Assembly: GCA_022791495.1 (NCBI GenBank)
Contig: JAAVZE010000099.1
Coordinates: 1-48,155, forward strand
Source: Eubacterium sp.
Lineage (GTDB): Bacteria; Bacillota; Clostridia; Lachnospirales; Lachnospiraceae
Length of the DNA stretch: 48,155 nucleotides
Direction of reading: 5' to 3'
Positions 35,667-38,203 of the stretch are shown piece by piece. How positions within the stretch are numbered: position 1 is the stretch's first letter; each line of letters starts with the position of its first letter. Made by a program: the position numbers and the translations under genes. Below the pieces are notes generated by a model that worked only from the letters and a program-made list of their open reading frames with translations, was not told where the DNA came from and did no database searches.

Positions 35667-38033
35667 CTATTTAAAATCTACCACAGTCACACCATATCCA
35701 CCTTCTCCGTATTCACCCATGCGATAGGATTGGATATAGTTCGTCTTTCTGCAGTGGGCCTGTACCGCGTTTTTGAGGGCGCCGGTGCCTACACCATGTA
35801 TGATTGTGACCTGGTGAAGTCTGGCAAGATAGGCATCATCCAGATATTTATCCAGTACTGCGATGGCTTCATCTACGGTTTTTCCGATCAGGTTTATACT
35901 GGAAGAGATGTTCATGGATTTGGACATCTTGATTTTGCCTGCATTGGAGCGCTCCCGGATCTTTTCTTTTCGGATCTGCAGGGTCTCTTCTTCCAGAAGC
36001 TCAAGATCCTTTATATCCACTTCAGAACGCAGGATCCCCATCTGGACAAAAAGCTTTCCCTTATTGTTTGGGAGGGAGCTGACAGTTCCCTTGACTCCCA
36101 TGGAATGGACCATGACCAGATCACCGATACTTAGCTTATCTGGAGCATTGGTATTATGACGCTTTTTCTTGCCGGAATCTAATTTTTCCCCAGTTCTTCG
36201 CAGTTCTTCCCGAATGGAAGAGCGCTGTTTTTCCATATCCCTAACAGCACCGCCACCCTCCATCCATTTATTGTATTTGCGAATGGATTCATCTGCAATA
36301 TTCTTTGCATTTTGAAGGATCTCATTTGCCTCTTCATTGGCGCGGCGCATTATCTTGTCTCTGGCTTTGTCGATGCGCTCGTTCTTTTCCTCCAATTTTC
36401 GTTTCTGACGTTCGATCTCTTCCCGGTATGAGGCGGCTTTTTGTTGTTCTGCCTCTAGTTCTTTTCTCGTCTGTTCCAGGCCTGTTACCACATCCTCAAA
36501 AGAGCGGGCATCTTCATCTACCAGAGAATTGGCCTTGTCAATAATCTCCTTTGGCAGTCCCAGCTTGCTCGAGATCGCAAAAGCATTACTTTTGCCCGGA
36601 ACGCCGATTAGAAGACGGTAGGTCGGCTGCAGTGACTCCACGTCAAATTCACAGGAAGCATTTTCAACCTGTTCTGTAGAAAGGGCATATATCTTAAGTT
36701 CGCTGTAGTGAGTGGTAGCCATGGCTGTGACCTGCCGGTTCAGGAGATTGTCCAGAATAGAAATCGCCAGCGCTGCTCCCTCCACAGGATCGGTTCCCGC
36801 TCCCAGCTCATCAAAAAGTGCCAGTGTATTTTTGTTTGCTCTCTTTAAAATAGAGATGGTATTGGTCATATGGGAAGAGAAGGTACTGAGACTCTGTTCT
36901 ATACTCTGTTCATCGCCAATATCTGCATATACCTCTTCAAATACCCGCAGATGTGAGCCGTCAAATGCTGGGATATGAAGGCCTGCCTGTCCCATCAGGG
37001 TAAAGAGTCCCACCGTTTTCAGGGAAACTGTCTTTCCGCCGGTATTTGGTCCAGTGATAATTAACAGGCGGTAATCCTGCCCCAGAGTAACATCAATTGG
37101 CACGACCCGGTCTCTTGGTATCAGCGGATGGCGCCCTCTTTTTATCTCTATAAAATTATCTGAAAAATCTGGCTCGCTTCCCTGCATTTTTTTTGAAAGT
37201 TTTGCCTTTGCAAAGATAAAATCAAGTTCAGCAAGCAAAATAACATTTCTTTCCAGCCCTTCTGCTTCAGGGGCGCACAGACTACTTATAGAAGCAAGGA
37301 TCTTCTCGATCTCTTCCTGCTCCTTCATGGCGAGCTCTGCCAGTTCGTTATTGAGCTTCACGATGGCCATTGGTTCCATAAAAAAGGTTGAGCCGGTGGC
37401 ACTCTGGTCATGGATCATTCCTTGAAAAGAGGATTTATACTCTTGTTTTACCGGAAGGCAGTAGCGCCCGTTCCGCATGGTGACCAGGTTGTCCCGGAGC
37501 ATTTCTGAGGATGAATTTACGGTGGCATTCAGCTGTTCCCGCACTTTGTCATTGGTATTTTTTATGGTACGGCGAATACGACGTAATTCACTGCTGGCAT
37601 CATCGCTGATCTCATCTTCTGAGAGAATGCAACGGCGGATCTCCCGGAGGATCTCCGGAAAGGTCTGCAGGCCGGAAAAACGGCCGGAGAGAAAGTCCGT
37701 CTCTTCATCTTTCGCCTCATACTTTACAGCCCTCTCTGCCACATCCAGGAGGGCGCCGATCCGAAGAAGCTCTCCGGCTCCCAGTGTACCACCTTTGGAA
37801 AGGGGTACCAGTCCTGGACGGATATCTGTCAGTCCATGGAAAGACAAAGGTCCGTGATGGAAGATTCTAGTAAGGGCGTGGGTGGTCTCTGCCTGTAGGG
37901 CGGTGATTTCGTCCCGGTCAGACAGCGGGCGAAGCCGTCTTGCGCTATCCTTTCCAAGGGCAGAATCAGCTTCATCTACCAGCATATCTATAATTTTATC
38001 AAATTCTAAAGTTTTGCATACTTTCTTATTCAC
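35667..38033 (-). CDS. mutS2: Endonuclease MutS2
   Basis: 788 residues when started at the GTG at 38033. MutS2 is a MutS-family ATPase linked to suppression of recombination and, in Bacillus, to rescue of collided ribosomes. Walker A GPNTGGKT is at 328-335 and Walker B DELGAGTDP begins at 408. A long coiled coil follows (about 510-620), then a C-terminal Smr nuclease domain (about 710-788, HGVGTGALK). The frame extends in phase 53 codons further to another GTG at 38192 with an identical ribosome binding site. That extension is encoded by an inserted palindromic element, so two N-termini are possible. Response regulator and kinase genes follow. Confidence 0.93.
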   Translation of the reverse strand: MNKKVCKTLEFDKIIDMLVDEADSALGKDSARRLRPLSDRDEITALQAETTHALTRIFHHGPLSFHGLTDIRPGLVPLSKGGTLGAGELLRIGALLDVAERAVKYEAKDEETDFLSGRFSGLQTFPEILREIRRCILSEDEISDDASSELRRIRRTIKNTNDKVREQLNATVNSSSEMLRDNLVTMRNGRYCLPVKQEYKSSFQGMIHDQSATGSTFFMEPMAIVKLNNELAELAMKEQEEIEKILASISSLCAPEAEGLERNVILLAELDFIFAKAKLSKKMQGSEPDFSDNFIEIKRGRHPLIPRDRVVPIDVTLGQDYRLLIITGPNTGGKTVSLKTVGLFTLMGQAGLHIPAFDGSHLRVFEEVYADIGDEQSIEQSLSTFSSHMTNTISILKRANKNTLALFDELGAGTDPVEGAALAISILDNLLNRQVTAMATTHYSELKIYALSTEQVENASCEFDVESLQPTYRLLIGVPGKSNAFAISSKLGLPKEIIDKANSLVDEDARSFEDVVTGLEQTRKELEAEQQKAASYREEIERQKRKLEEKNERIDKARDKIMRRANEEANEILQNAKNIADESIRKYNKWMEGGGAVRDMEKQRSSIREELRRTGEKLDSGKKKRHNTNAPDKLSIGDLVMVHSMGVKGTVSSLPNNKGKLFVQMGILRSEVDIKDLELLEEETLQIRKEKIRERSNAGKIKMSKSMNISSSINLIGKTVDEAIAVLDKYLDDAYLARLHQVTIIHGVGTGALKNAVQAHCRKTNYIQSYRMGEYGEGGYGVTVVDFK

Positions 38034-38203
38034 ATTATTCCTCCATTCCGGAGCATATGCGACGGGACGACGAGAAATTCGCGAAGGCGATTTCTCGTCT
38101 GTCATAATTGCTATTTGTGAGCGCTCCAAAGAACCAGAGGTTCTACTCACAAATAGTTGTGTGGAAAATAAACTATCGAGCTTATTTTTCACATTATTCC
38201 TCC
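38029..38203 (-). repeat. Palindromic element inserted in frame at the mutS2 start
   Basis: GGAGGAATAATGTGAA (minus strand), carrying the ribosome binding site and GTG start, occurs twice: 38029-38044 and 38188-38203, exactly 159 bp apart. Between the copies are strong hairpins: CTATTTGTGAG/CTCACAAATAG (38111-38156, with inner AGAACC/GGTTCT) and GACGAGAAAT/ATTTCTCGTC (38069-38099). The 159 bp are open in the mutS2 frame (53 codons). This looks like insertion of a small structured element with duplication of the target. Confidence 0.7.

Follow-up and report, generated by a model that had tools for sequence, protein, structure and literature searches.

Upstream of the native start of mutS2 in a Eubacterium sp. 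(Lachnospiraceae) lies a compact, strongly folding segment that, on comparison across genomes, proves to be one member of a family of non-autonomous mobile elements with dispersed copies. Judged by the sequences around its copies, the family inserts in one orientation between the Shine-Dalgarno sequence (SD) and the start codon of ordinary genes. A mobile element of SD/start sites, with a covarying fold, a role in the mRNA leader, and an enzyme that would move it in trans, is the best explanation as a whole, and we give it a probability of about three in four. The whole stretch analyzed (contig JAAVZE010000099.1 of assembly GCA_022791495.1, 48,155 nucleotides) is hereafter called the window.

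The element at the mutS2 start

Two copies of GGAGGAATAATGTGAA, each with an SD and a GTG, lie 159 bp apart on the minus strand and flank the folding segment (Table 1); pattern matching agrees here with the first-pass annotation of this DNA. With up to two mismatches allowed, TTCACATTATTCCTCC (sense GGAGGAATAATGTGAA) finds two matches against 0.04 expected, which, together with empty sites at mutS2, a second gene, and argS, rules out a chance repeat. The frame between the distal and the proximal GTG is open across 53 codons, as had also been claimed, and runs into mutS2, so that the two GTGs would allow two possible MutS2 forms, of 788 and 841 residues. As the MutS2 equivalog model covers residues 55-840 of the 841-residue reading, and close relatives of the window genome begin mutS2 at the proximal GTG, the latter is the native start. 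The 53 extension residues have no family match in Pfam or NCBIfam. Because an in-frame reading into the gene exists in only 6 of 104 other copies, the in-frame extension is incidental and the 841-residue reading a by-product. An open frame with its own SD and GTG might suggest that these codons encode a genuine and conserved N-terminus of MutS2, yet this is very unlikely indeed: such an extension was ruled out by the MutS2 model, which begins only at residue 55, by the blank family searches, and by its absence from close relatives with an empty site, and the frame closes inside the element in most copies (84/104). The earlier interpretation of a small palindromic mobile element at the mutS2 start, with the ribosome-binding site (RBS) duplicated, stands in the main. 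Its analogy to in-frame elements inside proteins misleads: the copies occupy SD/start sites, and a frame begun at the distal GTG rarely continues into the gene.

Table 1. Features of the mutS2 start region in window coordinates
Feature	Position	Strand	Basis
Body of the element, with a GTGTG-type end (here ATGTG) and a CCGGAAT end; limits accurate to within a few bases	38045..38194	-	Covariance model match 38046-38194, family comparison
Hairpin P1, 5'-terminal palindrome	38159..38194	-	Pattern match, fold
Hairpin P2, 11-bp stem; loop contains an extra small hairpin at 38130-38144	38111..38156	-	Sequence, fold, family covariation
Hairpin P3	38069..38099	-	Sequence, fold, family covariation
Arm of the pseudoknot within the P2 loop (sense GGAGC), pairing with 38050-38054	38123..38127	-	Sequence; family loop/3'-end covariation
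3' arm (sense GCTCC), with two possible partners: the P2 loop and GGAG of the SD just downstream	38050..38054	-	Sequence, fold
Upstream repeat copy: SD and distal GTG; partly overlaps the element's own 5' end	38188..38203	-	G021 has the sequence once
Downstream repeat copy: SD and native proximal GTG of mutS2	38029..38044	-	Sequence, relatives
mutS2 as read from its native, proximal GTG (788 codons)	35667..38033	-	ORF, relatives, MutS2 model
In-frame 53-codon extension inside the element	38034..38192	-	Open frame; no Pfam/NCBIfam match

Elsewhere in the window, Rfam at gathering scores places a Clostridiales-1 RNA (RF01699; 867-1035, minus strand, 128 bits, well above the gathering score), and it places nothing on the element. 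Five element loci searched against Rfam at E up to 5 likewise gave no match, and a described RNA family, riboswitches and RNA thermometers included, was rejected as the identity of the element.

Dispersal, empty sites, and target preference

The scattered copies that the first-pass annotation had proposed to seek are present in the own genome, the genus, and the wider Lachnospiraceae. In its own draft genome, the element has two further places by DNA search and five matches by covariance model, with one of the first three places being a remnant that the model missed; a short pattern search of the same genome gave 16 and 16 matches and barely outperformed the reversed control, which gave 14 and 8. 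DNA matches occur in 21 of 39 genomes of the genus, the own one included. A palindrome scan of species genomes returned at least 120 stretches, all labeled Lachnospiraceae or its genera or carrying broader or different Clostridia labels (for example Clostridiaceae, Eubacteriaceae, Eubacterium). The covariance model matches 35 of 200 genomes from the window's bacterial family, 11 of them with at least 16 scored places, and across the class it matches only 2 of 291, namely the own genome and one weak hit. From the record titles we infer that the family is nearly confined to Lachnospiraceae. Plasmids, phages, and viral contigs gave no blastn match and no exact match to two patterns, and cargo of a phage, plasmid, or virus was rejected on these blank searches. 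Family copies are mostly ~120-155 bp long; the intact copies examined are below ~250 bp and have no transposase gene, and no autonomous relative was found among the 122 P1 matches examined.

Mobility is visible at three loci with an empty counterpart. At mutS2, where ten genomes were compared, the relatives do not all keep the extension: G021 is empty and has exactly one copy of the 16-bp repeat, providing the empty site that had been suggested as a check, G022 is likewise empty but differs in its spacer, shortened remnants persist in G026, G027, and G036 (L189, L185, and L187, respectively), and four more distant genomes lack the element. That three relatives have let the element decay speaks against its being needed there. 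These remnants resemble the products of deletion between two TTTGGAG copies, one upstream and the other in the P2 loop. Ten genomes were also compared at the second gene: G000, G027, G036, and G021 carry the element, with GGAGATA duplicated (7 bp), whereas G026, G022, and four distant genomes do not. At argS (seven genomes), G000 and G027 have the element and a 14-bp duplication, GAATGGAGAGTAGT; G036, G021, and G026 do not have it, in G022, which is also without it, the upstream stretch is a different one, and G010 is a distant genome. The filled argS copies of G000 and G027 (L268, L272) have in common a changed second codon beside the insertion, AGA for AAA, which suggests a single shared insertion. 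Identity of the duplication thus extends over 7, 14, and 16 bp at the three loci. In each case the downstream SD matches the original, the second copy lies upstream, and the GTGTG end stands at the original place of the start codon; since the duplication spans the SD, the gene keeps an RBS.

The sense order in copies is SD - GTGTG...element...GGAA - SD - start codon - gene. This order was examined in an SD-blind test, with orientation and 3' end set by P2 and loop/end pairing alone; of the 122 P1 matches, 40 could not be oriented and one lay at a contig end, leaving 81. In 66 of these 81, an SD, a start codon, and an ORF no shorter than 40 codons follow within 28 nt, against 147 of 5989 random positions passing the same criteria (2.5%) and 0/81 when the opposite strand past the 5' end is examined. 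Among the 15 misses, several do have an SD and an ATG, with the ORF too short or the end misplaced. A purine-run rule for the 3' end, which is not SD-blind, gave 89/109 versus 100/5987 random positions. A set of 104 copies, the window copy not among them, was drawn from the 122 P1 matches in the at least 120 loci by a rule demanding an SD-like purine run and a start codon, so that counts on it are conditional on that rule; 93 of the 104 have an ORF of at least 50 residues. The 18 excluded matches comprise six that are too short, one that is N-filled, and 11 with unusual ends, among them L061 and four with an SD and no adjoining start codon (L057, L080, L104, L115). In L061, P1 is joined straight to the 3' end, with P2 and P3 deleted.

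Within the set of 104, the left and right flanks of the same copy share a mean run of 5.35 versus 4.59 when permuted (sd 0.11, 0/5000). Runs of at least 7 occur in 27 copies (permuted mean 9.6, at most 19 in 2000 permutations), 25 of them with a junction spacing of 8-10 bp; CGGAGGTTA and TGGAGAATA are clear flank duplications, and in the other 77 the sides are eroded or different. The left flanks of L124, L076, L110, and L249 end like the 3' end of an element (CGCTCCGGAATGGAG or CGCTTCGGAATGGAG), as though the SD that one insertion left behind had become the target of the next. The right SD also follows the element class: it is TGAG or CGAG in 12 of 19 copies of the CTCA subclass versus 5 of 60 of the CTCC class (p = 3.6e-6), whereas the left flanks do not differ (3/19 versus 6/60, p = 0.44). 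Plain duplication does not predict this pattern; either the element sometimes carries the right SD, or the SD evolves to keep its pairing with the 3' arm.

The genes downstream are diverse, related elements in other gut bacteria likewise lying before many unrelated genes. The 88 downstream proteins scanned match 121 Pfam families, led by response regulators with four, and no functional theme was found among them, at most four sharing one Pfam family. The SD beside elements is of a special type, GG(A/G)GnTT in 46/93 versus 19/249 other genes. GAA precedes the SD in 33/104 left flanks, which is not significant (p = 0.12). After the start codon, host genes resemble the element 5' end more closely than other genes do (4.04 versus 3.45 of 8 positions, p = 3e-4), perhaps partly because host genes are slightly A+T-richer (0.71 versus 0.67). 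At argS, the native ATGAAAAAG and the element's GTGAAAAAT occupy the same place; at mutS2, the start reads GTGAATAAG natively.

At orthologous sites, element sequences diverge more slowly than their flanks. G000, G027, and G036 share 152 identical bp of element at the second gene, against a difference of ~12% in the adjoining coding sequence, where 48 and 46 of 200 third positions differ; G021 has an element there with a different P2 loop and two substitutions. Another orthologous pair shows 3/152 element differences versus 9-11% in the flanks, the argS element 0/155 versus 2-6%, and the pair L125/L147 0/126 versus 3-6%. Selection, conversion between copies, or renewed insertion could each account for this.

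Fold of the element and access to the SD

As had been noted from the sequence, pairing is perfect in the 11-bp stem (38111-38121 paired to 38146-38156) and in the 10-bp stem (38069-38078 paired to 38090-38099); the first hairpin of the window copy has one mismatch. The sense-strand fold of the window segment reaches -64.2 kcal/mol (z = -6.6), and 0/200 shuffles were as good. Across 42 aligned copies, 97.2% of the cells pair versus 85.6% in shuffles, and 138 cells are changed on both sides versus 39.7; neither level was attained in any of 500 shuffles. The conservation of P1 in alignment A1 is partly the product of selection by the scan itself, and compensated P1 variants are seen in loci chosen without P1 (L016, L025, L031). 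The P2 loop and the 3' end are also matched, with a mean Watson-Crick run of 6.78 versus 4.90 permuted (0/5000; 59 different combinations of loop and end, drawn from the 89 copies whose loop is simple), and they covary, CCGGAGCGT occurring with ACGCTCCGG, CCGAAGCGT with ACGCTTCGG, and CTGAGCGA with TCGCTCAG. This pattern of compensated change shows, at the level of sequence, that P2, P3, and the pseudoknot between the P2 loop and the 3' end have been selected as a folded single strand. The excess of G-U over A-C cells (18 versus 10) leans weakly toward sense-strand RNA as the folded form. Two structural variants stand apart: in L016 an unrelated hairpin replaces P1 with the GTGT/ACAC base kept, and in L055, L089, and L120 (Clostridium sp. 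MCC353) short palindrome-like repeat runs (such as GCAAAATTTGCGT) lie between P3 and the 3' end.

The 3' end carries CTCC or CTCA, able to pair with the adjoining downstream SD. In folding models of 97 copies, the regained SD has a mean unpaired probability of 0.29 under nested folding and 0.46 with the 3' arm held, the pseudoknot being imposed as a constraint rather than predicted freely; the empty-site mimic gives 0.47, and the window copy 0.01 and 0.48, respectively. The 3' arm (CTCC) is thus predicted to mask the regained SD without the pseudoknot, and access with the pseudoknot is predicted to return to the empty-site level. The fold would act in the mRNA leader, where the last arm (of the CTCC type) could mask the regained SD and the pseudoknot could tie that arm up, so that the gene stays translatable. 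By sequestering the masking arm, the pseudoknot would make the insertion tolerable and potentially switchable.

Movement of the element and comparison with known systems

Strong covariation, a plausible predicted SD-masking arm, and slow divergence at orthologous sites would all suit a conserved cis-regulatory RNA leader, riboswitch-like or an attenuator, inherited with its genes rather than mobile. Such a leader is nonetheless improbable: empty sites and duplications contradict it as the sole account, and the lack of a functional theme in the 88 downstream proteins, the several hosts with at least 16 copies, and the blank Rfam searches also stand against it. A regulatory role may still exist alongside mobility, in second place. 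An enzyme acting in trans would move the element, and short similarity to gene starts at both of its ends may help its integration. Resident candidates were sought in 14 element-rich draft genomes. RVT_1 is present in seven and absent from seven, Y1_Tnp is absent from ten (loss or gaps being possible), IS110 has no match over the cut-off in six, and the drafts G132, G080, and G145 have no RVT_1, no Y1, and no IS110 over the cut-off. Each being missing from many element-rich drafts, Y1, reverse transcriptase (RT), and IS110 were rejected as obligatory resident partners.

Among the possible routes, a derivative of a DNA transposon, using a DDE-type or other transposase and making a duplication of ~9 bp, is somewhat doubtful: it would explain the predominant junction spacing of 8-10 bp in copies with long shared runs, but there are no terminal inverted repeats, the right SD can differ by element class, and the identities at mutS2 and argS are longer. 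The class-dependent right SD speaks for a SINE-like retroelement. An RT supplied in trans would reverse transcribe the RNA of such an element, with the element's 3' SD serving for priming at nicked SD sites. The asymmetry of the ends, an RNA-like fold, variable lengths of duplication, and the resemblance of host gene starts to the element 5' end likewise favor this route, which is still fairly unlikely, RVT_1 being absent from half of the element-rich genomes (these are drafts, and the RT could have been lost) and few 5'-truncated copies appearing among the partial matches examined. Hairpin-rich single-strand structure beside a fixed short sequence recalls a passenger of an IS200/IS605-type (Y1) system or of an IS110-type system with a structured RNA; we consider this highly improbable in view of the distribution of Y1_Tnp and IS110 given above. 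Duplicated target sites, found at three loci, would not be expected from the IS200/IS605 route. A broader conception, offered as tentative and probably not correct in full, is that of a self-targeting nucleic acid, in which the 3' SD and a 5' mimic of the start codon (GTG AAA AAT) would steer the element to RBSs throughout the genome and the pseudoknot would govern whether the regained SD is exposed, so that a portable translation controller would spread to unrelated genes. Whatever the route, a mobile element of SD/start sites moved in trans remains the preferred reading.

Site-preferring elements usually choose tRNA genes, terminators, or other repeats. The present family homes to the RBS itself and leaves one behind through duplication, so that it can sit before housekeeping genes such as argS and mutS2 without removing their RBS. 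If the pseudoknot controls access to the SD, these copies would amount to a naturally occurring collection of leader switches, numerous and alike but each placed before a different gene. There is also a consequence for gene annotation, as annotated starts may fall on the upstream GTG and extend the protein by residues that derive from the element (53 here). No earlier description of the family was found in the literature searched, most subscription journals and all preprints being outside its scope.

Dispersed short copies, empty sites, and target duplication all place the family in the broad class of small non-autonomous bacterial mobile repeats. RUP, ERIC, and Correia/NEMIS are, in the parts of the source drawn upon, non-autonomous MITEs of 100-200 bp with long stem-loop transcripts, target duplication, terminal inverted repeats, and mostly TA termini (PMC2229807). 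The likeness to them extends to size, non-autonomy, repetition, stem-loops, and target duplication; however, as its ends are unrelated and do not form terminal inverted repeats, the present family is not a classical MITE. REP elements, as partially described in PMC3733652, are also palindromes adjoining a short fixed sequence, but they are far shorter (20-40 bp), and the Y1 family linked to them is absent from 10/14 element-rich genomes here. The Rickettsia palindromic elements (105-146 bp) are similarly small and palindromic and can add in-frame residues to a conserved protein (PMC2229807, in the portion cited). These carry open frames fused inside proteins, whereas the present elements lie before the start codon with the frame closed in 84/104 copies.

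The nearest known system, by description, is YPAL / RU-2 of Yersinia. According to the sections of PMC2229807 used here, it is ~168 bp long with internal inverted repeats and no TA at its termini, makes target duplications of 3-26 bp, shows filled and empty sites and some in-frame fusions, and has targets that span or adjoin dyad symmetry. Internal palindromes, termini without TA, and variable duplication are all found in the present family, which is likened to it on that description. The two differ in host group and in target, which is dyad symmetry in YPAL and the SD before a start codon here, and those sections (PMC2229807) do not mention a pseudoknot for YPAL. As far as these descriptions reach, what distinguishes the present family from YPAL is its targeting of the SD, the SD that is regained, and a pseudoknot that covaries.
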